A stretch of DNA of 64,000 bases from Gemmatimonadaceae bacterium (lineage in GTDB: Bacteria > Gemmatimonadota > Gemmatimonadetes > Gemmatimonadales > Gemmatimonadaceae), in the NCBI GenBank assembly GCA_030647905.1, contig JAUSJA010000026.1, forward strand, positions 496,001 through 560,000, given 5' to 3'. The translations under genes and the position numbers were made by a program. Shown piece by piece: positions 27,495 through 46,236 of the stretch. How positions within the stretch are numbered: position 1 is the first letter of the stretch; each line of letters opens with the position of its first letter. The notes beneath the pieces were generated by a model. The model worked only from the letters and a program-made list of their open reading frames with translations, ran no database searches and was not told the origin of the DNA.

Positions 27495-27947
27495 CTATTC
27501 CGCGCGCTTCGCCAGTGCCGTCTCGAGTGCGTTCCAGGCGAGCAGCGCGCATTTTACCCGTGCAGGAAATCTGGCGACTCCGCTCAATGCGCGCAGCGAC
27601 CCGAGCGCCGCATCGTCCGCCGCCTGCGCGTCGCCCATGACCATGCTGCGGAAGCGCGCGCTCAGCGCCTCGATCTCGGCGACGCTTTTTCCCTTCACGA
27701 GCTGTGTCATCATGGACGCCGACGCCTGCGAGATGGAGCAGCCGCGCCCGGAGAAGCTGAGATCGCCGATCGCATCACCGTCGTAGCGGACGTGAACAGT
27801 GATCTCGTCGCCGCAGAGCGGATTCTTCATCACCACCGATGCATCCGGGTTCGCGATCTCACCCTTGTTGCGTGGACGGCGGTAGTGATCGAGGATCAAC
27901 TCCTGGTAAAGCGCGCCGATCTGCGCCGAGCGGTCAGACGGCGGCAT
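27495..27947 (-). CDS. sufU: SUF iron-sulfur assembly protein SufU
   Basis: A 150-aa NifU-N/IscU-fold protein. The three conserved cysteines are in MKNPLCGDEITVHV, FSGRGCSISQAS and ARVKCALLAWNAL, with Asp44 next to the first, as in zinc-bound SufU. SufU takes persulfide from SufS. The SufU insertion between the second and third cysteines (DAQAADDAALGSLRAL) separates it from IscU. Its start overlaps the sufS end by 14 nt, so translation is coupled. Confidence 0.94.
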   Translation of the reverse strand: MPPSDRSAQIGALYQELILDHYRRPRNKGEIANPDASVVMKNPLCGDEITVHVRYDGDAIGDLSFSGRGCSISQASASMMTQLVKGKSVAEIEALSARFRSMVMGDAQAADDAALGSLRALSGVARFPARVKCALLAWNALETALAKRAE

Positions 27948-29148
27948 GTCCGAAGATCTCCTTTGCCTTCATGACCCCTTCGATGAGCGCGTCGAGGTCG
28001 GTGCGGTCGTTGTAGATGTAGAACGAAGCACGGGCTGTCGAGCTCACGTCGAGACGCCGCATGAGCGGCTGCGTGCAGTGGTGGCCGGCGCGTATGCAGA
28101 CGCCGTCTCCATCGAGAATCGTCGCGAGGTCGTGGGGATGCACGTCGCTGAGGGTGAAGCTGATGACCCCGCTCCGCAGCGATGGCACGGGTCCGTATAT
28201 CGTCACGCCGTCGATGGCGGAGAGCCGCGCGTACGCTTCGGCTACGAGCTCGCGCTCGTGCTTCAGCACCTCGTCCATGCCGATCGCGTCGAGATAATCG
28301 GCGGCGGCGGCGAGGCCAACGGCGCCAGCGGCGTTCGGCGTCCCCGCCTCGAACTTGTGCGGCAGGACATTCCACGTCGTCGTCTCGTCGTAGACGAACT
28401 CGATCATGTCGCCGCCCATCTGGTACGGCGGCATCGCCTCGAGCAGGTCGCGCCGGCCGATCAAACCGCCGATACCCATCGGCCCGCACATCTTGTGGCC
28501 GCTGAAGGCGTAGAAGTCCACGCCCAGCTCGTCGAATCCGACGCGCATATGGGGAACCGCCTGGGCTCCATCGCATACGACGATCGCCGATGTCCGCTCC
28601 CGGGCCATCCGGACGATCTCGGCGACCGGATTGATGGTGCCAAGCGCGTTCGACACGTGGTTGAACGCGAGGATCTTCGTCTTCGGCGACAGCAGGCCGG
28701 CGAGACAGTCGAGGTCGAGCTGCCCGTCCGGCGTCAGCTCGCAGACCTTGAACGCCGCCCCCTTCTCGATGGCGAGCTGCTGCCACGGGACGAAGTTGGA
28801 GTGGTGCTCGAGTGCGGTGACGACGATCTCGTCGCCGCGCGAGACATTCTGGCGTCCCCACGACGACGCGACGAGGTTGAGCGCCTCGGTGGTGCCGCGT
28901 GTGAACACGAGGCAGTCAGGGTCGCCAAGGCCGAGGAACGTCGCCATCCGGCTGCGGGCGTGATCGTAGCAATCGGTGGCGGCGACCGAGAGCGCGTATG
29001 CGCCGCGGTGAGGATTGGCGTAGCTCGTCTCGTAGAAATCGCGAATCGCATCGAGGACGACAGTGGGCTTCTGTGCGGTGGCTGCGGAATCCAGGTAGTG
29101 GAGATCCGGGTTGGATGCGAGCAGCGGGAAATCGGCTCGTCGGCTCAT
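27934..29148 (-). CDS. sufS: Cysteine desulfurase SufS
   Basis: A 404-aa PLP enzyme that takes sulfur from cysteine for Fe-S assembly. The PLP lysine is in FYAFSGHKMCGPMGIGG and the catalytic cysteine in VCIRAGHHCTQPLM, the short-loop SufS form. YLDSAATAQKP near the N-terminus and TRGTTEALNLVA are classic class V aminotransferase stretches. The ATG at 29148 gives the normal length; the frame is open to 29256. It is divergent from sufBCD, with a 207-nt shared promoter region. Confidence 0.95.
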   Translation of the reverse strand: MSRRADFPLLASNPDLHYLDSAATAQKPTVVLDAIRDFYETSYANPHRGAYALSVAATDCYDHARSRMATFLGLGDPDCLVFTRGTTEALNLVASSWGRQNVSRGDEIVVTALEHHSNFVPWQQLAIEKGAAFKVCELTPDGQLDLDCLAGLLSPKTKILAFNHVSNALGTINPVAEIVRMARERTSAIVVCDGAQAVPHMRVGFDELGVDFYAFSGHKMCGPMGIGGLIGRRDLLEAMPPYQMGGDMIEFVYDETTTWNVLPHKFEAGTPNAAGAVGLAAAADYLDAIGMDEVLKHERELVAEAYARLSAIDGVTIYGPVPSLRSGVISFTLSDVHPHDLATILDGDGVCIRAGHHCTQPLMRRLDVSSTARASFYIYNDRTDLDALIEGVMKAKEIFGHAAV

Positions 29149-29284
29149 CGGGTTTTCTCCGCGTGCGATGCGTGTTCGGGGACGGGATGCAGAGCGCGAA
29201 AAGGCCCTCGCCGCACGGCGTGCGACCGTGCTTAAACGACTGTCTGGCAACGACATACGCCATGTTTGCCTAACGCCGGTTCGC

Positions 29285-29313
29285 TTGACTATCCCGACAA
29301 GTTTACTTAGGAT
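29285..29313 (+). promoter_or_regulatory. Sigma-70-type promoter of the sufBCD operon
   Basis: TTGACT (29285-29290), a 17-nt spacer and TAGGAT (29308-29313) lie upstream of the sufB ATG, which has AAGGAG 6 nt before it. The spacing is optimal and the site is in the sufS-sufB divergent gap. Confidence 0.6.
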
Positions 29314-29355
29314 TCAATCTACGTCACGAAGTGCCGTAACGCCAAGGAGTTAGGG

Positions 29356-30792
<1,437 letters not shown>

Positions 30793-30795
30793 AAG

Positions 30796-30812
30796 GGCCC
30801 GGTCACCGGGCC
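30796..30812 (+). terminator. Hairpin in the sufB-sufC gap
   Basis: GGCCCGGTCACCGGGCC can form a 6-bp GC stem just after the sufB stop. No T-run follows, so attenuation or mRNA processing is more likely than full termination. Confidence 0.35.
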
Positions 30813-30842
30813 GTCGAATAATTCAACCAGAAAGACATACAA

Positions 30843-31592
30843 GTGCTTGAAATCAAGAACCTGCACGCCGCCATCGGCGAGAAGGAAATACTGAAGGGAA
30901 TAGATCTCACTGTCAACGCGGGCGAGATCCACGCAGTGATGGGTCCCAATGGCTCTGGCAAGAGCACGCTGGCGCAGGTGCTTGCGGGACACCCCGGTTA
31001 CGAGGTCACTGAAGGCGAAGTGCTGTACGACGGACGCAACCTGCTGGAGATGGACCCCGAGGTGCGCGCCCAGGAAGGGATCTTCCTCGCGTTCCAGTAT
31101 CCGATCGAGATTCCCGGCGTCACCAACGCCTACTTCCTGCGCTCGGCGTACAACGAGATCCGCAAGGCGAAGGGGATGACTGAACTCGATCCGCTCGAGT
31201 TTCTCGATCTGATGGACGAAAAGACGAAGCTCATGGACATAGATCCGGCGATGATGAATCGCTCGGTCAACACGGGATTCTCCGGTGGTGAGAAAAAGCG
31301 GAACGAGATCCTGCAGATGGCGGTGCTCGAGCCGCGTCTGGCGATTCTCGACGAGACGGATTCCGGGCTCGACATTGACGCGCTCAAGGTCGTAGCGAAT
31401 GGTGTGAATGCCCTTCGACGCCCTGACAATGCGACGATCGTCGTCACGCACTACCAGCGGCTGCTGAACTACATCGTTCCCGACTTCGTTCACGTTCTCG
31501 CGAACGGCCGGATCGTGATGTCGGGTGGCAAGGAACTGGCGTTCGAGCTCGAGGAGAAAGGATACGACTGGATTCCCGGTGCAGCCGCGTGA
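30843..31592 (+). CDS. sufC: Fe-S cluster assembly ATPase SufC
   Basis: A 249-aa ABC-type ATPase that drives SufBD remodelling. Walker A is MGPNGSGKSTLAQVL, the signature is TGFSGGEKKRNEILQM, and Walker B is LAILDETDSGLDIDAL, where Glu-Thr replaces the usual Glu-Pro as in SufC. The H-loop is in IVVTHYQRLL. The start is GTG at 30843. The stop overlaps the GTG start of sufD (GTGA). Confidence 0.97.
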   Translation: MLEIKNLHAAIGEKEILKGIDLTVNAGEIHAVMGPNGSGKSTLAQVLAGHPGYEVTEGEVLYDGRNLLEMDPEVRAQEGIFLAFQYPIEIPGVTNAYFLRSAYNEIRKAKGMTELDPLEFLDLMDEKTKLMDIDPAMMNRSVNTGFSGGEKKRNEILQMAVLEPRLAILDETDSGLDIDALKVVANGVNALRRPDNATIVVTHYQRLLNYIVPDFVHVLANGRIVMSGGKELAFELEEKGYDWIPGAAA

Positions 31593-32854
31593 GTGAAGCG
31601 GTGATGCAGGCGGCGCCGCCTTGCGAGCCCGGGTGGCTGCGCGACTTTCGGCGTTCCGCGATGGCCCAGTTCGAGTCGAAGGGATTCCCGACGATGAAGG
31701 ACGAGGACTGGCATTTCACCAGCGTCGCTCCGATTGCGGAGAGAACGTTCGGCGTCGCGCACCCGGGAGCCCCGGTTTCCGCGGACGTCCTGAAGCGGTT
31801 TGCGCATGGGCAAGACTGGCACACGTTCGTCTTCGTGAACGGCTGGCTGGAAAGCAGCGCGGACAGCCTGCCTTCGGGAGTGACCGTCGGCGGTCTCGCC
31901 GACGCAATCGAGAACAGCGCCGAGCTCGTCGAGCGTCATCTTGGTAAGCTTGCGACAGCGGAATCGGGTGCGTTCACCGCGCTCAACGCAGCGCGGGCGA
32001 CCGATGGCGCGGTGATCCGCATTGCCGCCGACGCGGTCGTGGACAAGCCGATCCACCTGCTGTTCATCTCCGATTCCGGCGCCGAGGGCGCGGCGGTGCA
32101 CACCCGCAATCTCGTTTTTGCGGAGCGACATTCGCAGTGCACGCTCATCGAGAGCTACGTGAGCGTCGGCGGGGACAGCTACTTCACCAACGCGGTGACC
32201 GAGGTCTACGTCGCCGACGGGGCGCGGCTCGGCCACTACAAGCTGCAGACCGAGAGCCGCAACGCGTTCCACGTCGGGACGGTGCAGGTGCATCAGTCAC
32301 GCGACAGCCGCTACGAGTCGTTCTCGTTCGCGACCGGCGCGAAGTTGTCGCGCACAAACGTGTACACCACTCTTGCCGGAGACGCGGCAGAGGCGGTGCT
32401 CAACGGGCTGTACATGGTGGACGGCTCGCAGCACGTGGATCACCAGACGCGCATCGAGCACGTCGCGCCGAACTGCCCGAGCCACGAGCTCTACAAGGGC
32501 ATTCTCGACGGCAACTCGCACGGTGTGTTCAACGGGAAGGTGTACGTACATCCCGAGGCGCAGAAAACCGACGGAAAGCAGACCAACAACAACCTGCTGC
32601 TGTCGGATGCAGCGCGGATTGATACCAAGCCGCAGCTCGAGATATTCGCCGATGACGTGAAGTGCACGCACGGCGCTACGGTGGGGCGCCTGGATGACAC
32701 GGCGCTGTTCTACATGCGGAGCCGCGGGATCGAGCCGGCGCAGGCGAAACGGCTGCTTACCTACGCGTTCGCTGCTGATGTTCTGGAGAAGATCGAGCTG
32801 GAGCCGCTCAGGGAATCACTCGAGGCGCAGGTCCTCGAGCGATTCACTGGCTGA
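31589..32854 (+). CDS. sufD: Fe-S cluster assembly protein SufD
   Basis: A 421-aa SufBD-core protein, third part of the SufBC2D scaffold. Typical segments are KDEDWHFTSVAPI near the N-terminus, VDHQTRIEHVAPNCPSHELY, GVFNGKVYVHPEAQKTDGKQ and LFYMRSRGIEPAQAKRLLTY. The GTG start overlaps sufC. The gene is complete. A diverged copy of its last 45 or so codons lies at 41730-41876, with two blocks of perfect identity (31 and 25 nt), suggesting that DNA was inserted at this gene's 3' end. Confidence 0.96.
   Translation: MSEAVMQAAPPCEPGWLRDFRRSAMAQFESKGFPTMKDEDWHFTSVAPIAERTFGVAHPGAPVSADVLKRFAHGQDWHTFVFVNGWLESSADSLPSGVTVGGLADAIENSAELVERHLGKLATAESGAFTALNAARATDGAVIRIAADAVVDKPIHLLFISDSGAEGAAVHTRNLVFAERHSQCTLIESYVSVGGDSYFTNAVTEVYVADGARLGHYKLQTESRNAFHVGTVQVHQSRDSRYESFSFATGAKLSRTNVYTTLAGDAAEAVLNGLYMVDGSQHVDHQTRIEHVAPNCPSHELYKGILDGNSHGVFNGKVYVHPEAQKTDGKQTNNNLLLSDAARIDTKPQLEIFADDVKCTHGATVGRLDDTALFYMRSRGIEPAQAKRLLTYAFAADVLEKIELEPLRESLEAQVLERFTG
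32766..32796. repeat. Left copy of a 31-bp direct repeat inside the sufD 3' end
   Basis: This 31-bp block is identical to 41788-41818. A second identical block is 32822-32846 (25 bp), repeated at 41844-41868. Both pairs are colinear in homologous coding sequence, so the repeat is a partial sufD duplication rather than a simple short repeat. Confidence 0.9.
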
Positions 32855-33022: not shown

Positions 33023-34651
33023 TCAGGTGCCGCCCGCAAGCGTAACACCAGCCCAAGCAGTGCCTGCGGATCGATCGCCCGTCGGCCGGAATCCCGAACC
33101 ATTTCCTCTGGGCGTGAGCTGCTCGTATCGTCCCGCGATCCAGAAAGCTGCGGCGCTGGAGCTCTGCCATCTGATCGCGCCCGAAAATGCCTGCGACATC
33201 GAGCCCGACGTCTCGATCGCCAACTCCGGAGCGAAGAACCTCTTGTAGATATCTCCGCGGGAGAGCGGCGAAGGAACCGAGCCGTTCACGGAGTAACCCG
33301 CGATTGCGTAGCCGCCAATCACGAGCATCCGCGGTGACAACAGTCGGCCGAGCTCGATCAATGCGGACGGCGTCACTCCATCGACCGTCGTGCTGACCTT
33401 AGCGATCGCATCGGTTCGCACTCTGTGTTCGGTCTCAACGCCCAGACCAAATGCTCCCGTCCACCTGCTTGCGCCGGGAGGAATGCGGATCTCTCCGTGC
33501 GCCCGTGCCGATCTCTCCTCCGCATCGAAGCCTTTGCGCGGCGGAAGTACCTGCTCGGCGTGCCCTGTTAACGACGTCAGAACGGCGTCAGCGGTTACCA
33601 GAGCGCGGCCATGTATCACGGGAAGTTGCAGCGCGATGCCACCGCTTCCGCTCGTCGTTGCCCAGAGATCTGTCGCGGGATTGTCCTGGTTCTGGCTCGT
33701 CAGTCGCTGGCGGAAATGTCCTCCGCCTCCGTACGCAACCCATCGGAACGCGCCACTCCGTCCTCCCAGGCTGACCTGACCTGACCGCGACTCATCCAGC
33801 ATTCTTCGCGAATAGAACAGATCGGTCTCTCTCGGCAGAATTTCCCGGTAGCCTTCCAGTGCGTAGAGCACCCCTTGCTGCGCATACTCGAAGAGGCTGA
33901 TCGACTCCTTTCCTCCATTCCAGTTTCCCACAAGTCCTGCCTGTAATCGATCATCATTGAAGGAGCGAACGACCCCAACCCCGACGCCTGACTGCACGGT
34001 CCGATTGCGTCGCGCAAACGGCGAAGAGATTGTTGCAGTGTTGCGTGTATCGTAACCGAGCGAAAGCCCGAGCCCCCAGTTTCCCAGTCGCCATCCGCCC
34101 GCGCCTTCGAGTCGGGCACGGCTCTGGCGAACGGCCGACGTTGAAGAATCGGTGACGACGAATGGGCTCGACCCGTACGGATCGTTCACGTCGCTTCGGG
34201 TGCCGGGATTCTTGATGTTGCGGTTGAAGATCGTCCGGCCGATCAATGCGCCTCTCTTCTCGACCGGCTGCCATCCCATGCCGGAGATCTGCGTGAGCCG
34301 CGTCGCAGCCGGATCGAGCGGACGCCGATACGTGCCATCCTGCGTCGAGCGCGCCGCAGCGATGTCGCCTCGCTTGTCGCTCACGTCCCACGGGAGTGCG
34401 GCGGGATTGGCGGCACTCCAGAATAGTCCGACCTTGGGCGCAGGCATGAGCAGCGACGGCAATGCAACAGACGCGCTTGGTAACTTCCTCGGCAGATCTC
34501 CCTGCGGTGTCAGCGGGCTCCACGTTTCGAGCCACTGAGGAAGATCACGTCCTGATGCGACGCTGAGTGATTGCGCATCGGCAACTGAGACCGGCAACGC
34601 CGCTGTTACGATCGAGCCGAGGACGATCAAACCATGAGCTCTCAGCGCCAT
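33023..34651 (-). CDS. Outer-membrane beta-barrel protein, DUF6850-like
   Basis: A 542-aa exported protein with leader VLGSIVTAALPVSVADA. Most of the sequence is alternating strands with aromatic girdles (GGWRLGNWGLGLSLGYDT, RWVAYGGGGHFRQRL, AAAFWIAGRYEQLTP) and a glycine-rich end. It resembles Bacteroidota barrels annotated DUF6850 that sit beside TonB receptors and DUF4876 lipoproteins, and both partners occur here. That link is from memory of gene neighbourhoods, not a search. The start overlaps the end of the TonB receptor gene by 10 nt, so the two are co-translated. The partner substrate is unknown. Confidence 0.7.
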   Translation of the reverse strand: MALRAHGLIVLGSIVTAALPVSVADAQSLSVASGRDLPQWLETWSPLTPQGDLPRKLPSASVALPSLLMPAPKVGLFWSAANPAALPWDVSDKRGDIAAARSTQDGTYRRPLDPAATRLTQISGMGWQPVEKRGALIGRTIFNRNIKNPGTRSDVNDPYGSSPFVVTDSSTSAVRQSRARLEGAGGWRLGNWGLGLSLGYDTRNTATISSPFARRNRTVQSGVGVGVVRSFNDDRLQAGLVGNWNGGKESISLFEYAQQGVLYALEGYREILPRETDLFYSRRMLDESRSGQVSLGGRSGAFRWVAYGGGGHFRQRLTSQNQDNPATDLWATTSGSGGIALQLPVIHGRALVTADAVLTSLTGHAEQVLPPRKGFDAEERSARAHGEIRIPPGASRWTGAFGLGVETEHRVRTDAIAKVSTTVDGVTPSALIELGRLLSPRMLVIGGYAIAGYSVNGSVPSPLSRGDIYKRFFAPELAIETSGSMSQAFSGAIRWQSSSAAAFWIAGRYEQLTPRGNGSGFRPTGDRSAGTAWAGVTLAGGT

Positions 34652-37524
34652 GCGAAAAGCGCCTCCAACGGCATCGTGACCTCGAGCCCGAATCGTGTTG
34701 ACTGATAGAAGTTCGGCGCTCTTCCGCCGCCTCCGAATCTGCCGATCTTGTCGAACGCATTGAAGGCGTAGAACGACAGCCGACCATCGAGGGGAAGCGT
34801 CTTCGCCGCCTGAAAACTGAACAGCCAGTCGCTCGCGCCATTCTGTCCCGCAGCGATTACGTTGCGACGTGGAATACGGATCGTGAAAAATTCAGGGCGG
34901 TTCTTTTCTGTCTCGGGGACAGGCACGAGCGAGCCACCGCGTGTCACGTAACCGACGAACGAAAGGGTGTCCGTGCGGCCGATGTTCTGTTTCCTGTCGC
35001 GGAGCGTGTGTTGAATCGTGCCGGTCAAGGCGAGGCCAACCGCGGGCTGGTGATGTATGACTCGCGTGGCCAGCAGGAGGCGTTGACCCGTACGAGCGAT
35101 CGGATCGTAGTAGGGCGAACGTGGCTGATTCTGCGCGATCTGGAATTCGTCGAAGTTGCCCGCGAACTCGAGCCCATCCTTATCGAGACGACTTTTCACG
35201 AGCGCGCTCTGGAATTCGACTCGCGTCCGGATTGGCGTTATCTCCGGAAGGCCTGCCGTCAACTCGAACCCGCTGCTGGTCTGGTCCAGGTTGTTGGCGC
35301 GGCGGTCTATGAGTACGGGCACCGAATCCACCGAGCTCGCGGGCTCGACAATGACGGGAGGCTTTCCCGAGCCGGGAGCGGTGTTGGTCAGAGTAAAGTG
35401 CTCGCGCAGAAGAAACGTCGGCTCGGCCCTGATTCCAACTCCTCCAGTGAGCTTCTCCCGGAAGGCGACGAAGCTGAGATTTCCGCCGCGGCCGAATCGC
35501 ATCTCCAGTCCGGCTTCGGCCTTGTCGGCAATGGAGTAATGCAGGTCAGGATTGCCGGGGTCGAATGTGGACGTGGTCAGAACAGCCAGCCGCTCCGCCG
35601 GATTGTTGGCGAAGAAGTTCACGTTGATGACGTCGTAGTACTGAAGTGCAGGATACAGATCATCGAGCGACGGGAGTTTCGCCACACGCCCGGCACCAGC
35701 GCGCAACCGCAACCACGGGCGCGGCGCAAGCTCCGCATTGAGGCGTGGCTGGATTACACCGTCACGCGAGCCCGGTGCCCAGGTGCCTCCCTGGTGCAGC
35801 ACGTCGGCACGAACTCCGCCTTGGATGTTGAGGAGCATTCCACTGGCGAAGGAGCGCGAAAGCCGGTCGTCGAGATAGAAGGCGCTAGTCGCGAGAGCCG
35901 GAATCTCAGCGTATGTGCGCGGGCGCGCGAACCCGCGCGCGCCATTGAACTGATCCTGGGGTGGAAACTCGATGTCAAACTGATATCCCGCGCCCGAGTT
36001 CACTTCACGGCGCAGTTCGCCGCCGAGGCGAATGTCGTGTGAGAAACCGAGCATGTCACGGGGACTGCTCAGCTCAGCGCGTGTATAGAACATTTGCGGC
36101 TTGCCGTCCACGTTCACGCGCGCGTTGTAGATGCCCGCCACGTAACGTCCAATCTCGCGGCCCGGTGTGGTTCTATTGGTCACCGGTGTCGTGGACCGCA
36201 GCTTGTTCTGCCGCGAGAATGATTCCTGGCGTCCGGCATCGAATGCCCCCGTGAGCTCAAGGCGAGAGCGCTGGCCTATACGGAGCCGTGCGCGCTCAGA
36301 GATGCGGAGCCCGGAATCTCGAGATCTTGACTCCATACCCGGGAGTGCTGCCTGCTCCGGCCGCTGATCGAGCAACTGGAAGAAATCGGCGCGCGTATCG
36401 AGAACGAGCCGGGCATCGAGCGGGCTGCCGTCGAGCACTGACTCACCGGTTCTCTGCCCGAAAATGGCACGATGGGCGAGTTGGCTGGAAAAGTGCGTTG
36501 CTTGGTCGTCGCGGGTGCCGCTGGGCACCCGTGTACGTGCCAGATCTGCTGTCACGCTGCCGGTCTGGTGTGGGCCCAGCCGTGTTCCCCCGACGATGCT
36601 TGCTTCGGTGGTTTGCGCATCCGCGCGGAGCGATGCTTCGGGAGGAATTACGCCTGCCCTTGTGTCGATGATGATCGCGCCCTGGGTGAGATCACCGAAT
36701 CTCGCGGACGGAATTCCGCGGATAACCTCGACACGCTCGATGGTCGTCGCCGGAATTCTGCGAAGGTCGATGCCACCGCCCGCCGAGCTGCTGAAGCCGA
36801 GCTCCGCACGTGAGCCGAGTGACTGCAGGTTGGCGTTGTTGGACAGGGGAACGCCGTCGAGGATGATCAGGGTTCCAAACGCGGCGAGCTGCTGGGCAGA
36901 GCGATCGGAGGAGCCGGGGTCGCCGCCGGAAATGGGCACAGCCCGAAGCGATATCTGCTGGACGTTGTCGAGGCCGGGCGCCTGGAGAGGTACGCCGGGA
37001 AGAAGCTCGAGAATTCCGGAGAGGCTTGCGGCTGTCTGGTTCTTGATCGCTTCCTGCTCTATGACGCTTGCTGTGCCGAGCTCTCCGCGCGCGCGGCTGG
37101 CCGGATCGGCCGTCACGGTGATGCCGGTAAGCTCCAGCGCGTGCTTCGCCATCGCGATGTTCCGCCGGAGCTCACCAGTCGCGGGAACGACGATGTTAAT
37201 GCGCGTAGGTGCATAGCCGATGCGTTGCGCACGGAGAACCTGAGGTCCGGCGGGAGCGCGCCCTATGCGAAAAGAGCCCGTGCTGTCTGTCGTAGCGCCC
37301 ACACGGGTTCCTTCGAGTGTGACGCTTACCCCGACGAGTGGACGGCTGGTGCTCGCTTCGGTGACCTGGCCGGTGATGTGTGCTTCACCGGCCGCTCCTC
37401 CCTGCGCGAAGGCTCTCGAGGAAATCGAGGTCATCGAGCCAATGAGCGTGGCGCCGAGAACCACATACTCAAGCCGTCGTGCGATCGTGAACTTGTCAGT
37501 CTTCATATGCTGCATCTTCTCCAT
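34642..37524 (-). CDS. TonB-dependent receptor of the island locus
   Basis: A 960-aa outer-membrane receptor. A leader (LGATLIGSMTSISSRAFA) precedes a carboxypeptidase-regulatory domain (about 45-130; ITGQVTEASTSRPLVGVSV, GSFRIGRAPAGPQVLRAQ). The plug follows (about 140-270; SLSGILELLPGVPLQAPG, IERVEVIRGIPSARFGDL), then a barrel ending GLEVTMPLEALFAWR. I chose the ATG at 37524 because GAGAG lies 6 nt upstream. ATGs at 37515 and 37506 also fit, and the frame is open to 37590. It overlaps the barrel gene downstream and follows a thioredoxin-like gene. Confidence 0.85.
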   Translation of the reverse strand: MEKMQHMKTDKFTIARRLEYVVLGATLIGSMTSISSRAFAQGGAAGEAHITGQVTEASTSRPLVGVSVTLEGTRVGATTDSTGSFRIGRAPAGPQVLRAQRIGYAPTRINIVVPATGELRRNIAMAKHALELTGITVTADPASRARGELGTASVIEQEAIKNQTAASLSGILELLPGVPLQAPGLDNVQQISLRAVPISGGDPGSSDRSAQQLAAFGTLIILDGVPLSNNANLQSLGSRAELGFSSSAGGGIDLRRIPATTIERVEVIRGIPSARFGDLTQGAIIIDTRAGVIPPEASLRADAQTTEASIVGGTRLGPHQTGSVTADLARTRVPSGTRDDQATHFSSQLAHRAIFGQRTGESVLDGSPLDARLVLDTRADFFQLLDQRPEQAALPGMESRSRDSGLRISERARLRIGQRSRLELTGAFDAGRQESFSRQNKLRSTTPVTNRTTPGREIGRYVAGIYNARVNVDGKPQMFYTRAELSSPRDMLGFSHDIRLGGELRREVNSGAGYQFDIEFPPQDQFNGARGFARPRTYAEIPALATSAFYLDDRLSRSFASGMLLNIQGGVRADVLHQGGTWAPGSRDGVIQPRLNAELAPRPWLRLRAGAGRVAKLPSLDDLYPALQYYDVINVNFFANNPAERLAVLTTSTFDPGNPDLHYSIADKAEAGLEMRFGRGGNLSFVAFREKLTGGVGIRAEPTFLLREHFTLTNTAPGSGKPPVIVEPASSVDSVPVLIDRRANNLDQTSSGFELTAGLPEITPIRTRVEFQSALVKSRLDKDGLEFAGNFDEFQIAQNQPRSPYYDPIARTGQRLLLATRVIHHQPAVGLALTGTIQHTLRDRKQNIGRTDTLSFVGYVTRGGSLVPVPETEKNRPEFFTIRIPRRNVIAAGQNGASDWLFSFQAAKTLPLDGRLSFYAFNAFDKIGRFGGGGRAPNFYQSTRFGLEVTMPLEALFAWR

Positions 37525-37564
37525 CACGGACTCTCGCGAATATGCACGCAGGTAGTGCGGTATG

Positions 37565-38032
37565 TCAGCCCGTTGATCGAGCTGGAACACGTGCCGTTGG
37601 CGACATGGCCTGCTTTTCGGTCGCCGCCGGAGGAGCAGGCGGCCGCAGCGCTTCGTTGACGACTGAATCTTCTACGGCCACTAACTCGATGACTCCGCTT
37701 CTCGAGTAGAGAATTCGTCCTTCGGAATTCAGAATCAACGTTTGCGGTACGACTGCTGCGCGCGAAAGGCGTACCAGTTTGCGTTCGGGAAAGACGAGCA
37801 ACGGAAACGGGAACTTTCCCCTTTTCTGAAATCGCTTTGCTTCCGGAAGAGAGTCCGGAGTGAGACCGAGCACCGTTATTCTGCTCCGAGGCTGTGAGTT
37901 GAGTCGCGCTGCGATTCTGCGCCAGGAAGGAATGGTCCTGCGGCAGTACGGGCAGGCCAGTCGGTGAATCTGATTCTTCGCATTGTCTTTCCTGTGGTGT
38001 GTGCCGGCAGCCGAGGGGAAATCGGACTGCAT
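37565..38032 (-). CDS. Thioredoxin-like protein with CPYC motif, possibly N-terminally truncated
   Basis: A 155-aa frame containing a redox motif, RLACPYCRRTIPSW, near residue 27. A thioredoxin/TlpA-like core follows (ITVLGLTPDSL, FPLLVFPERKLVRL, and the cis-proline loop AVVPQTLILNSEGRILYSRSG). In TlpA-type proteins about 60-100 residues with a leader precede the CxxC; here only 26 atypical residues do, and no signal peptide is visible. The 5' end may be lost or frameshifted. It lies 40 nt upstream of the TonB receptor gene, divergent from the cysteine-rich peptide. A role in disulfide chemistry of that peptide is a tempting inference. Confidence 0.6.
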   Translation of the reverse strand: MQSDFPSAAGTHHRKDNAKNQIHRLACPYCRRTIPSWRRIAARLNSQPRSRITVLGLTPDSLPEAKRFQKRGKFPFPLLVFPERKLVRLSRAAVVPQTLILNSEGRILYSRSGVIELVAVEDSVVNEALRPPAPPAATEKQAMSPTARVPARSTG

Positions 38033-38095: not shown

Positions 38096-38173
38096 GTCAA
38101 CAAGGCAGAGGGAGAGACGTGCTCTTTCCTCATGAGCGGCTCGACCGCTCGTCCATTCTTCATGGAGAGAAAA

Positions 38174-38407
38174 ATGCGTAGGACAAAGCTGGTAGCGAGG
38201 GCGGCTCTGCTGTTTTCGCTGGTTGGGAGCCTGACGTTCGGCGCGTCAGAAGTTTTCGCTGCCGATCCCGCGAGAACATGTCCGAACGACGGGTACAACG
38301 CGTTCGGTGAGTGCGTGAGTTTAGAGAATTGCCAGTTCCTCTGCGAAGGTGTCGGGGGCATTCAGGGCAATTGTATCTCCGCGAACTGCTGCTTCTGCGA
38401 ACACTGA
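38174..38407 (+). CDS. Secreted cysteine-rich peptide with defensin-like (CS-alpha-beta) cysteine spacing
   Basis: A 77-aa precursor. A basic start and hydrophobic core (ALLFSLVGSLTFGASEVFA) give a signal peptide likely cut after VFA at residue 29. The 48-residue mature part has eight cysteines at 36, 47, 53, 57, 67, 72, 73 and 75: C-x10-C-x5-C-x3-C-x9-C-x4-CC-x-C. The C-x3-C helix motif, the GNC segment resembling a gamma-core GXC, and the C-terminal C-x-C are the hallmarks of the CS-alpha-beta fold. The first four intervals equal those of plant defensins; the last plant cysteine is absent and an extra one precedes C-x-C. GGAG lies 6 nt before the ATG. Antimicrobial, signalling or receptor-ligand roles are all possible. 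NVEALA-type exported peptides of Bacteroidota are an alternative relation. Confidence 0.75.
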   Translation: MRRTKLVARAALLFSLVGSLTFGASEVFAADPARTCPNDGYNAFGECVSLENCQFLCEGVGGIQGNCISANCCFCEH

Positions 38408-38505: not shown

Positions 38506-39786
38506 ATGTCAGTCTGGGGTAAATTTCGCGGTGCTATGGCCTCGCATCATATTGCTGGGCTCGCCGCTTTCCTGGCACTGGGCTGCTCAGGCGGGGAAGT
38601 GAAGATCGTCGATCCGCCCCCCACGGGCAGCTCAGGTCTCAAGATCACCATTGCGCCTGAGCCTGCAGATCAGTCGTTCGCTCAACTCCTCGGCTGGACC
38701 AGTGGAATTCCTGGTGCTGAAATCAGAGTCACTCCGCTCGATTCTACCGTCGGCCGTTCTCAGACCTTCACTGCCGACGCCTCTGGATCAGCTTCAGTTT
38801 CGGGCCTGGCACCGGAGCAATACGTTGTCGAAGCGAGGAGACTCCTGTCCGCATCTGAACTTGCAAAGTTCGGCACGGGGCGTGACCCGACAGGGTTCGC
38901 AGGGAGGGGAACGATTCACGTTTCTCCGACTGTGTCATCGGCCATTGTCACCATTCCTGCCAGCCGCCGCCGATCACTCCTGATTAACGAAGTGTCCTGG
39001 CAAGCTGTGTTCCAAGCCCTGCCGGATGGAGCGACCTACTACGATAACGGCTTCATCGAGATGTACAACAACTCGGACACGATTATCCACCTGGATGGGA
39101 TGACCATCGGACAGCCAATAAATATCTTCCGTAACTACCCGGACTTTCCATGTTCGATGTTCGAGAGGTTTCGCAACGATGCGACGGGAATCTGGGCTCA
39201 GGTCATTTTTGTGTTTCCCGGAGCGGGGCAGGATTATCCACTGGCTCCCGGGAAGCTCGTGGTTGTAGCGCAGGACGCAATTGACCATTCCGGTATTTTC
39301 CCAGGGTTGCCGGATCTGAGTGGCGCCGCTTTCGAGTTCACTGGAAGACCCGGCGATGTAGATAACCCGGCTTCCGCGAATTTGATTAGCCGTGGGGGTT
39401 ACACTGCTCCTCACGGGATGCTGAATATGTCGCTCGGTGGAACCATTTTTGTTGCAGCTCCTGTCAACTTTGCGGACCTGGAGAGTGGGCGTGATCCGCG
39501 CAATGACAATGTTCTCAGTAAATTTCCGGCGGCCACGATACTTGACACCTTCTCCACCGTGTTCCCAAATGACGACTATCCTGAAAACCCATATTGCTCG
39601 GAGCTTGTGAACCGCGCCTTCGACCGCGAAACCGGGAAGTTCTTCTCAGAGTCACGGGGTAGCTTCCAAATCTCCCAATCACGCAGATCGATAGGCGTCA
39701 CGGCCGACAGCCGGCCAATCGTTCAGAGCACGCGTTCGAGTGCGATGGATTTTGTGAACGGCCCTTTCAGTCCAGGAAGGATGTAG
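38506..39786 (+). CDS. Lipoprotein resembling DUF4876 proteins
   Basis: A 426-aa lipoprotein with lipobox AFLALGC. An N-terminal Ig-like domain (about 40-150; GIPGAEIRVTPLDSTVG, SGSASVSGLAPEQYVVEARR) precedes a lamin-tail/DUF4876-like domain (about 160-420; LLINEVSWQAV, NGFIEMYNNSDTIIHLDGM, DYPLAPGKLVVVAQDAIDHS). AAGGAG lies 6 nt before the ATG. Related lipoproteins sit beside TonB receptors and DUF6850 barrels in Bacteroidota. It follows the cysteine-rich peptide and is divergent from the receptor. GC content is visibly lower than in the flanking housekeeping genes, consistent with transfer. Confidence 0.72.
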   Translation: MSVWGKFRGAMASHHIAGLAAFLALGCSGGEVKIVDPPPTGSSGLKITIAPEPADQSFAQLLGWTSGIPGAEIRVTPLDSTVGRSQTFTADASGSASVSGLAPEQYVVEARRLLSASELAKFGTGRDPTGFAGRGTIHVSPTVSSAIVTIPASRRRSLLINEVSWQAVFQALPDGATYYDNGFIEMYNNSDTIIHLDGMTIGQPINIFRNYPDFPCSMFERFRNDATGIWAQVIFVFPGAGQDYPLAPGKLVVVAQDAIDHSGIFPGLPDLSGAAFEFTGRPGDVDNPASANLISRGGYTAPHGMLNMSLGGTIFVAAPVNFADLESGRDPRNDNVLSKFPAATILDTFSTVFPNDDYPENPYCSELVNRAFDRETGKFFSESRGSFQISQSRRSIGVTADSRPIVQSTRSSAMDFVNGPFSPGRM

Positions 39787-39817: not shown

Positions 39818-40498
39818 TTAAGCCGTCCGTCGAAACCTGGCGATTACCGTCCCGAGGACGAGCGACAAGTCCTTTGGAATGTCGAACGAGCGAGAACGCG
39901 GGTTAAGCGAGGTAAGCTTCAATCGCGAGTTCGTGATCTCCTTCACGCGTTTTACGACGTAGCCCTCATCCGGGCGGCGCGCAACGATAATGTCGTTTAT
40001 CGTTACCCTCGCTCCAAGCTTCACGACGATGACGTCGCCGTTTTCCAGAAAAGGAGACATGCTTGCTCCCGAAACGTGCAACGCGACGTGCCCCGCAGCA
40101 GAATTCCCAAGCGGAAACTCGATCCATCTTTCTGCTTCCTCGTCGAGCAATTCCCGCCCTTCGCCTGCAGCGACTCGGCTGTCAATCAGCGGTACGCATT
40201 CGAGCGACGCGGCAATTGGAAACACTTCGCGTACGCGACCCACGACGGGAGCGGGGATGTCGTAGAGATGCATGACAGGCATCTCTTTCATTATACGCTC
40301 GGCGGCAAGACGCGCCTCGAGCTGCTCAGCAAAAGTCTGAGCATGTTTCTGAGTATCCCGCTTTTCTTCCACGGTCATCGCGCGCACAGTATCCCTGATG
40401 AGCCAGTCAACGAATCCCTCATGATCCAATCCCGTCGCATCAGAGCGTTGCGCAACCAGTTTCTCTATCGAGGGCTGTCTTGATTCAGAATCAGTCAT
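39818..40498 (-). CDS. LexA/CI-like S24 peptidase without a recognisable DNA-binding domain
   Basis: A 226-aa protein whose C-terminal half (about 105-226) is an S24 self-cleaving protease. The serine is in HVSGASMSPFLENGD (Ser146), the lysine in GYVVKRVKEI (Lys183), and the likely cleavage site is Ala111-Gly112 in DSRVAAGEG. The first 100 residues are helical but do not match a LexA or CI helix-turn-helix. Its start overlaps the sigma-like gene upstream by 4 nt (ATGA), so DNA binding may come from that partner. A phage-type or SOS-type switch is inferred. Confidence 0.8.
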   Translation of the reverse strand: MTDSESRQPSIEKLVAQRSDATGLDHEGFVDWLIRDTVRAMTVEEKRDTQKHAQTFAEQLEARLAAERIMKEMPVMHLYDIPAPVVGRVREVFPIAASLECVPLIDSRVAAGEGRELLDEEAERWIEFPLGNSAAGHVALHVSGASMSPFLENGDVIVVKLGARVTINDIIVARRPDEGYVVKRVKEITNSRLKLTSLNPRSRSFDIPKDLSLVLGTVIARFRRTA

Positions 40499-40992
40499 TC
40501 TCCCTCCTCTGACTGTCCCAGCTCGGGGACATACTTCGCCAGTTCAGCTCGCTCTTTCTCATCGAGTCTCCTGGCATAGAGAGCTGCCGCGCGCTTCAAC
40601 CTGTTGCGAAGACGGTGAATTCGAACTTTCGTCGTGGGTGCGGAAATGCCGAGCCAGTTTGCGATGTCGTGAGCAGGAACCCGATAGGATATCCAGGTGA
40701 GAACCGCACGATCGGGGTCGCCTAACGGAGCAAGGATCTCGTCGAGCATGGCCGTTAGAACCGCCGGTGCCGGTTCTCGTGCGTAAGAATCCGGTCCAGC
40801 GGCAGACCGCAAGGCATGCTCCGAGCAGCAACTGATGATTGCTTCCTCCGCGGAGCCCGCGAGCCTGCTCATTGCTTCACCCGACATCCAATCGCGAGAC
40901 GAAAGGGTGGCTGTGGAGTCGGGCGCGGGTCTGGTCAAGAGTCGTCTGCATGACTGGCCACGCGCTGCGAACTCTCCTGCGATTCCAGCCAT
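40495..40992 (-). CDS. Sigma-70 region 4-like helix-turn-helix protein
   Basis: A frame of up to 165 aa. Residues about 85-140 (ILAPLGDPDRAVLTWISYRV, ANWLGISAPTTKVRIHRLRN) match sigma region 4 of ECF-type factors. The segment before it does not look like region 2, so it may be a stand-alone regulator rather than a full sigma factor. The 40992 start overlaps the ERF-like gene by 58 nt. ATGs at 40887 and 40872 avoid that, and the latter has GGGTGA upstream. The stop overlaps the S24 gene (ATGA). Confidence 0.65.
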   Translation of the reverse strand: MAGIAGEFAARGQSCRRLLTRPAPDSTATLSSRDWMSGEAMSRLAGSAEEAIISCCSEHALRSAAGPDSYAREPAPAVLTAMLDEILAPLGDPDRAVLTWISYRVPAHDIANWLGISAPTTKVRIHRLRNRLKRAAALYARRLDEKERAELAKYVPELGQSEEGE

Positions 40993-41561
40993 TGTCTCAA
41001 CTTGCTCGCCCAGCTTTCGAGTCGAGCCGGTTTGGGGAGACGATGATGGTTGAGACGCCGCCTGATCGGTTCGCTCATTTCCGTTGCGAACCCAAGCTGC
41101 TCGGCCTCGGAGAGGAGTCTCGACACTTCGGCGGCGAGCCGCCGCGCATCGGCGAGCTTATAGGAACTTGCGATACCAGACCTCTCCCGAATTCTTTTCG
41201 CGCGGGCAACCTTGGCCATTTCTTCCGAGCTCGGACGAAAAGTTGATGCCGTGAATCCAAGATTCGCGAGCGCACGCCCGATCGCGGATGTCTCCGTATT
41301 CTCGAGACAAGCGTAAGTGTTGATCTGTCCGTCGTCCTCGCGTTCCGAGGCCCACCCAGTCGAGGAAGGAGCCGCATCCTCCGCCGTTCGGAAGACCTGG
41401 GACTTGAAGGTGATTTCTCCGTCTTCGCGCGACATCAGCTCAGTGAGAATTCGACCTGTCGGATGACGCTCGTAGAAGAGCGTTATACGGTCGGCGACCA
41501 GCGCATATCCGCCACTCCGGATCGAAAGCACCTTTGGCACGTTCACCTTCCAATGCGTCAC
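40935..41561 (-). CDS. ERF-like single-strand annealing protein (phage-type)
   Basis: A 208-aa protein. The segment CLENTETSAIGRALANLGF (about 86-104) is the most typical stretch of ERF-superfamily single-strand annealing proteins, with VFRTAEDAAPSSTGWAS before it in the position of their acidic loop. The C-terminal part is helical and basic. Such proteins pair homologous DNA during phage recombination. It leads the three-gene minus-strand module with the sigma-like and S24 genes, inside the proposed island. Low-stringency similarity only; another recombination-associated function is possible. Confidence 0.55.
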   Translation of the reverse strand: MTHWKVNVPKVLSIRSGGYALVADRITLFYERHPTGRILTELMSREDGEITFKSQVFRTAEDAAPSSTGWASEREDDGQINTYACLENTETSAIGRALANLGFTASTFRPSSEEMAKVARAKRIRERSGIASSYKLADARRLAAEVSRLLSEAEQLGFATEMSEPIRRRLNHHRLPKPARLESWASKLRQWLESQESSQRVASHADDS

Positions 41562-45001: not shown

Positions 45002-46236
45002 TTATTTGACTTCGAGAACGCCCATCATCCCATGATCCTCGTGATCAAGGATGTGGCAGTGGAACATCCACTTCCCCGGGTAATCGGCGTAGTGCACGAT
45101 GAATCGGACAGTGGTGTGCCTGGGCACGTTCACGGTGTCCTTCCACGTCCGCTGCGATACGGGCACTCCGTCGCGGTCCAGCACCTGAAATTGAAATCCA
45201 TGCAGATGGAACGGGTGGTCCATGCCGACGACGTTTTCGATCTGCCAGATCTCCGTCGCGCCGAGCGGTGCGGTAACGTCCATGCGGTTCATGTCGTGCG
45301 TCCTGCCATTGATGAGGCCCTGGCTGAGTACCATCAAGCGGGTCGCCGTCACCTTCGTCGTGTCAAGAACTGGAATCGCGCGGAGCACTTCGGGCAGCTT
45401 CACCGGGGTGACCGGCTTCCGGGACGTGTACTGCAGCGTGAGCAGATCGCGCGGCTTGTCCCAGTCGGCTGGCCGCGTCTGCGGTACGTAGCGGTCATAC
45501 GGAAGTGTCTGCAGCACTGTGCGCTCGCCCGGCCGGCCAGTGCCTCGCACCAGGAGCTCGACGCGTTCGCTGTTGGCGACGAGGATGTCCTTGACCTCGA
45601 CCGAATGCTCGAACAGCCCGCCATCGTCGCCGATGTGAAGGAACGTATGGCCCGGGATCGCGAGCCGGTAAACGCGGGCGGCCGACGCATTGATGATTCG
45701 CCATCGCTGCACCTCGCCGCTTCGGATGCTGATTGTCGGCATCACCTGCCCGTTCACGAAGAGCACGTTGCCTTCGCGTCCGTTCTCCTCGTCAATTTCG
45801 CCCGCTAATGATTCCGGATCGGGCAGGTCGATAGATCCGTCGGGGAGGAATTGATTGTCGGAGAGAATCAGGAGGTTGTCGGTCACACCGGCAGGAACTG
45901 GATCTACAGGCGGCCGGACGATGATCCCTCCGAACAGACCTTTCGCGATCTGCCGTCAGATGTGACCGGGATGTGCAGGCCGTGCCAGTGAATCGTCGTC
46001 ATTTCCGGCAGGCGGTTCCGGAAGTGAACGATGACGCGATCGCCTTCGTGCACGTCGAGTGTCGGTCCGGGGACCCTGCCGTTATAGGCATACGCGGGTG
46101 TCGTTCCACCCGGCACGATCGACAACCGCGTCGGCTCGGCGGTAATGGTTACTTCTACGGTGTGAGGAACTCTGGAGACGTTGACGAGGACGGGGGGCCC
46201 GGGGACGACGGCAACGGATGAAAATGGAGAGACACA
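45002..46236 (-). pseudogene. Multicopper oxidase with central deletion and frameshift
   Basis: The N-terminal piece (to about 45960) has the first cupredoxin motifs, NGRVPGPTLDVHEGDRVIV and MTTIHWHGLHIPVTSDG, where HWHG binds copper. The reading then jumps frame to RQIAKGLFGGIIVRPP, skipping the 40-50 residues that normally carry the second copper motif (HxH). The rest is intact: GMDHPFHLHGFQFQVL and WMFHCHILDHEDHGMMG, the T1/T2/T3 ligand sets. No start codon or export signal is found in frame at the 5' end. A functional oxidase cannot be made from this copy. Confidence 0.8.

Follow-up and report, generated by a model that had tools for sequence, protein, structure and literature searches.

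A cysteine-rich peptide family of Gemmatimonadota with a probable CS-alpha-beta fold and a possible role beside a TonB-dependent receptor cassette

A small open reading frame (ORF) at positions 38174-38407 (+) of a 64,000-nucleotide stretch from a Gemmatimonadaceae bacterium (GenBank assembly GCA_030647905.1, contig JAUSJA010000026.1, positions 496,001 to 560,000; hereafter, the window) translates to a 77-residue peptide with eight cysteines and a predicted signal peptide. We propose, with a probability of roughly 0.45, that the product is a four-disulfide peptide of the cysteine-stabilized alpha-beta (CS-alpha-beta, or cis-defensin) fold that serves an uptake system built around a lipoprotein and a TonB-dependent receptor. 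Bacterial cis-defensins have so far come from few groups, and the descent of eukaryotic defensins from bacterial ones is debated; such peptides are already known in bacteria, and it is the genomic setting of the present family that is new. An initial reading made from the window's letters only (the sequence-only reading) described the peptide as defensin-like and did not include the cassette in which it lies or the expansion of its family.

The gene has the signals expected of a translated and exported product. A Shine-Dalgarno-like GGAGAG (38164-38169, +) stands 4 nt upstream of the ATG at 38174, and the first 29 residues (38174-38260, +) form a hydrophobic leader in which relatives conserve an FGA...A motif; cleavage would fall after VFA, at a VFA|ADP boundary. 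The mature part (38261-38404, +; stop codon 38405-38407) would then have 48 residues and a net charge of -5, and ends in CxC-EH. The cysteines are at residues 36, 47, 53, 57, 67, 72, 73 and 75, with intervals x10, x5, x3, x9, x4, x0 and x1, so that the number of cysteines, their first four intervals, the terminal C-x-C and the length of the mature part are as first described. The genome assembly (3.1 Mb in 37 contigs) holds no second copy of the window peptide. Among 199 related genomes, a search with the single sequence identified three genuine homologues (E = 3.6e-10 to 7e-6), and the further members of the genus that were searched yielded no convincing one; two contig scans of genomes confirmed no relative, and a plasmid tblastn search with the peptide gave no match. 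The family came from the search across related genomes, and was extended by dozens more members through a four-sequence profile, run against 288 genomes of the order, and a 24-sequence profile, run against 395 genomes of the phylum. Using Nei-Gojobori counts for eleven pairs of relatives, the ratio of nonsynonymous to synonymous substitution rates (dN/dS) in the mature region was at most 0.35 in ten; the exception is a tandem pair (locus L104), with a leader dN of 0.034, a mature dN of 0.435 and a mature ratio of 0.94. Because relatives occur in at least seven families of the phylum and are mostly under purifying selection, the ORF is, on sequence grounds, a real gene, as had been claimed from the ribosome-binding site and signal peptide. 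The relatives form a large and apparently undescribed bacterial family; no report of such peptides in Gemmatimonadota was found in the open-access literature (subscription papers and preprints were outside the scope).

That the family adopts the CS-alpha-beta fold is, from its sequences, highly probable, and since the structure models are weak or inconsistent the case rests mainly on profile matches and on the covariation of cysteines. Searched singly, the window peptide reached E = 0.19 with the Pfam gamma-thionins (PF00304; 12.5 bits, cut-off 25.1), and its seven matches in the PDB at E ≤ 10, the best only 0.077, all fell on plant defensins or on a CS-alpha-beta peptide of the scorpion type. 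The profiles gave stronger matches. One, built from 19 mature eight-cysteine relatives and almost or wholly free of signal-peptide residues, had noxiustoxin as its best match (7e-5), followed mostly by CS-alpha-beta proteins, with few other matches lower down, and the profile of the six-cysteine relatives matched cobatoxin (1.8e-5) and then nasonin, coprisin, plectasin and insect defensin A. Aligned with each other, the two groups gave E = 1.5e-5 (probability 80%). A 60-sequence profile also picked the bacterial defensin xanthusin-1 (E = 0.027); its list includes two big defensins, which belong to another defensin superfamily, and the specificity of the profile is therefore high, not total. 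The alignment shows a conserved scaffold with variable loops: the cysteines of CxxxC (C53xxxC57) and CxC (C73xC75) are invariant in 60 aligned relatives, and the GxC of the gamma-core (G65-N-C67) is invariant in the six-cysteine group, with G65 and C67 nearly so in 24 sequences. The match to solved CS-alpha-beta toxins and defensins is what the sequence-only reading had led one to expect of a profile search.

Structure prediction was less uniform. AlphaFold, run on residues 30-77 with no alignment, gave a strand (13-14), a helix (21-30) and two further strands (35-40 and 43-47); in the best model the predicted local distance difference test score (pLDDT) was 73-81 in the core and 65.6 on average, the other four models being less confident. 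In Foldseek the top matches of this model were defensins and scorpion toxins, including 1gpt, 1gps and ZmD32. Two results weaken this part of the case: the Foldseek E-values are weak, 0.1 at best, and a 43-residue construct (residues 35-77) was modelled, with low confidence, as a helix without a hairpin (mean pLDDT 56.9). The profile searches and the paired loss of cysteines thus carry most of the weight and the modelling little, one model showing the anticipated strand, helix and hairpin and the shorter construct lacking the hairpin. The low single-sequence scores and the second AlphaFold run would suit an unrelated cysteine-rich family that resembles CS-alpha-beta proteins through cysteine spacing only; however, the eight- and six-cysteine profiles each select CS-alpha-beta structures and hardly any other cysteine-rich fold, the CxxxC, GxC and CxC motifs are retained, and the losses of cysteines fit the bridge scheme described below, which makes such a family very improbable.

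Four disulfides, 36-72, 47-67, 53-73 and 57-75, are predicted from the sequences, and are the same four that the sequence-only reading had put forward; profile searches and paired loss of cysteines favour them, as does, weakly, the one AlphaFold model. Among 74 sequences of the family, the eight-cysteine form that ends in CCxC accounts for 28, and another 29 possess six cysteines, C1 and C6 both being absent; the peptide of locus L072 retains CCxC yet lacks C2 and C5 together. The joint losses of C1 with C6 and of C2 with C5 fit the bridges 36-72 and 47-67. Bridges 53-73 and 57-75 are assigned by analogy with known structures, and the four residues concerned never vary. Extra cysteines are placed elsewhere in some members (L105, L108 and L111), and a subgroup from two genomes (G213 and G214) has nine, one of which appears to follow a lipobox-like sequence (GC).

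The inferred pairing sets the family apart from the plant defensins, with which the window peptide shares the first four cysteine intervals and probably the helix-hairpin core and which are among the best Foldseek matches of its model. Plant defensins pair C1 with C8; in the window peptide, which is anionic and has a CCxC ending, the most plausible partner of C1 is C6, and across the 74 sequences the loss of C1 goes with that of C6, C8 being kept, contrary to a C1-C8 bridge. The comparison to plant defensins thus stands for the first four intervals and fails for the fourth bridge, and membership of that family was rejected because of the different bridge and of a Pfam score below the cut-off. 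With the short-chain potassium-channel toxins of scorpions and the insect defensins, which provide the best profile matches, the likeness is one of fold only (a C..CxxxC..GxC..CxC core); the window peptide differs in being bacterial, in its probable fourth bridge and in its genomic setting. Among bacteria, actifensins and AMSIN are known from Actinobacteria and myxobacteria (PMC6989792, PMC8819291), and a survey of cis-defensins distinguished five classes with 74 peptides, from Proteobacteria together with one sequence from Acidobacteria and one from Actinobacteria; neither TonB nor Gemmatimonadota is mentioned in its text (PMC11561630). Its class III (cellulosin-type) shares with the present family the CS-alpha-beta motif, GxC and secretion, and its fourth disulfide is described as Cys 1-6 (PMC11561630), as is probably the case here, in agreement with the co-loss in 29 of our 74 sequences; class III, compared here by description only, differs in comprising three sequences, all from Polyangiaceae.

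The second line of evidence for the proposal is the cassette. Upstream of the peptide gene is a redoxin, or thiol-disulfide oxidoreductase, with a CPYC motif (37565-38032, -; Pfam AhpC-TSA 8e-7, StoA-like 1e-4), and downstream is a lipoprotein gene (38506-39786, +) with the lipobox LALGC. The lipoprotein itself scores below the cut-off for DUF4876 (1e-4, 22.9 bits against 27.9); all 22 of its aligned homologues match that family (best 5.8e-15). Beyond the redoxin lie a TonB-dependent receptor with a CarboxypepD_reg domain (34642-37590, -; Pfam plug 8.9e-12, barrel 9.7e-15, CarbopepD_reg_2 6.7e-16) and an outer-membrane barrel of the DUF6850 family (33023-34651, -; Pfam 2.1e-15), so that the TonB receptor, DUF4876 and DUF6850 genes are all together in the window. 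Redoxin and DUF4876 lipoprotein also adjoin the peptide in each of the three homologues from the single-sequence search, and the cassette recurs, complete or in part, in six families (f1, f2, f4, f5, f7 and f9). When DUF4876 loci were collected independently of the peptide, by a lipoprotein profile, both redoxin and cysteine-rich peptide lay within 1.5 kb in 13 genomes and neither in 11 (Fisher p = 4e-7, a value that is only indicative because the genomes are related). Compared with its aligned homologues, the window redoxin is missing the N-terminal membrane anchor, and reading the minus strand in all three frames does not recover it; this copy may therefore be decayed.

Composition bears on what the peptide might do. 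Peptides linked to the cassette are anionic (mean net charge -4.2, n = 31) and the other relatives near neutral (-0.3, n = 40), none being strongly cationic. Antimicrobial defensins are expected to be cationic, and the antimicrobial role implied at first for the window peptide sits badly with its net charge of -5 and its place inside a conserved cassette of TonB receptor, DUF4876, DUF6850 and redoxin genes. The main rival to an uptake role is nevertheless a bacteriocin with self-protection, that is, a peptide that kills or inhibits neighbouring bacteria (lipid II, the ligand of actifensin, could be one target), with the DUF4876 lipoprotein as immunity protein or receptor. The fold is the same as that of actifensin, a lipid II binder (PMC12284004), and both systems can have several copies, actifensin within an operon and the present peptides at up to 28 per genome; the actinodefensin model (NF038042) gives weak matches to 15 of the 60 members (best 9e-5), the L104 pair combines a conserved leader with a diverging mature part, and in one genome (G213) there is one lipoprotein per peptide. 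However, actifensin, which is antimicrobial, is encoded in clusters that carry ABC (ATP-binding cassette) transporters, a LuxR regulator and a subtilisin-like protease (PMC6989792), none of which was seen here, and no ABC exporter was recognised next to the peptides. Moreover, the window copy has no NCBIfam match to NF038042, a TonB receptor and a DUF6850 barrel would be unusual components of a bacteriocin cluster, the cassette peptides are strongly anionic, purifying selection predominates, and xanthusin-1 of Myxococcus, which has the same fold, showed no antimicrobial activity (PMC11561630). On balance we regard a bacteriocin as unlikely.

We favour instead, tentatively, a role of the peptide in the uptake system. 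The peptide would be exported by Sec and folded oxidatively with the help of the neighbouring exported thiol-oxidoreductase, which is intact in relatives and truncated in the window; once folded, it would work extracellularly with the DUF4876 lipoprotein, as a small partner that captures the ligand or serves as adaptor, and that ligand, probably iron or some other metal or cofactor in short supply, would be fed to the TonB-dependent receptor and the DUF6850 barrel. Bacteroidota have operons in which a homologous TonB receptor, DUF4876 lipoprotein and DUF6850 barrel occur together. Iron limitation induces loci that carry DUF4876 and TonB genes 20-215 fold in Porphyromonas gingivalis (PG1019-22) and 38-128 fold in Bacteroides thetaiotaomicron (BT3625-33), which places such loci among the most strongly induced by iron starvation in these organisms (PMC10434189), and Bacteroidota DUF4876/TonB loci are also hemin-responsive (PMC10470040). 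In Prevotella nigrescens (L151) the TonB, DUF6850 and DUF4876 genes are followed by genes for an M16 insulinase-family protease and feoB. This last arrangement is reminiscent of a protease-associated import system, and the M16 protease was considered as a general partner of the cassette.

Several observations weigh against an uptake role for the peptide. No such peptide or redoxin adjoins the TonB/DUF4876/DUF6850 genes in the Bacteroidota loci read, and the peptide is therefore not essential to uptake. No Fur-box-like site stood clearly above shuffled sequences in 11 upstream regions, the best candidate (L111) agreeing at 11 of 19 bases, as did 13 of 200 shuffles. Locus L109 has peptide and lipoprotein and no redoxin. 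In the family f6, which is probably Longimicrobiaceae-like, the peptides (present in 11 of 21 genomes, at up to 28 per genome) are mostly of the six-cysteine type and orphan, often in tandem at a spacing of about 250-400 bp (L100, L101, L102 and L104), and these orphan arrays have no DUF4876 neighbour; a redoxin gene is directly upstream of the peptides in two f6 loci (L103 and L112).

The remaining point against concerns G213, where at least nine convergent peptide-lipoprotein units form two clusters about 300 kb apart (L060, L061 and L062); a kinase of this genome has its best plasmid matches in Gemmatirosa kalamazoonensis, in keeping with a place of the family in Gemmatimonadota. Distances between the peptides correlate with those between the lipoproteins (Mantel r = 0.50, p = 0.002), and the signal peptides correlate with the lipoproteins as well; the correlation may therefore reflect simple co-inheritance and not contact, and co-divergence was rejected as proof of contact. 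These pairs nonetheless offer directly testable peptide-lipoprotein partners. A different small cysteine-rich protein, possibly secreted, is encoded inside one of the clusters (L060:14009-14461, -). The pairing of peptide and lipoprotein paralogues, together with the conserved scaffold and variable loops, would also agree with a secreted signalling, adhesion or enzyme-inhibitor peptide, with the lipoprotein as sensor or anchor, and the CS-alpha-beta scaffold is functionally versatile in eukaryotes, as is generally known; neither a sensor kinase nor an anti-sigma gene stood out as a recurrent member of the cassettes, and we judge such a function quite unlikely, more so than a bacteriocin.

Extended to the phylum, the uptake proposal would make the defensin-fold peptides dedicated parts of TonB-dependent uptake, each with its own lipoprotein and its own oxidoreductase, the orphan tandem arrays having diversified separately in one family. 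We hold this wider version to be somewhat more doubtful than the role of the peptide in the uptake system. If the proposal is correct, the defensin fold has a non-antimicrobial role in bacteria; abundant, diversified and tied to a thiol-oxidoreductase and to uptake within one phylum, it would offer a new place in which to seek the ancestral function, and it raises the possibility that the killing of microbes was not the original job of the fold.

In the window, the cassette directly adjoins the iron-sulfur assembly genes sufU, sufS, sufB and sufD (27495-32854). Between 38 and 42 kb the G+C content is 0.57-0.59, against 0.62, and inside this dip, at 39818-41561, is a phage-like remnant with an S24 repressor-like protein, a weakly sigma-factor-like one and a phrog_11717 protein; the dip and the bordering phage-like repressor suggest that the peptide region was acquired by transfer. 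Further along, at 45002-45886 (-), a 294-residue ORF, possibly partial, has multicopper oxidase domains.
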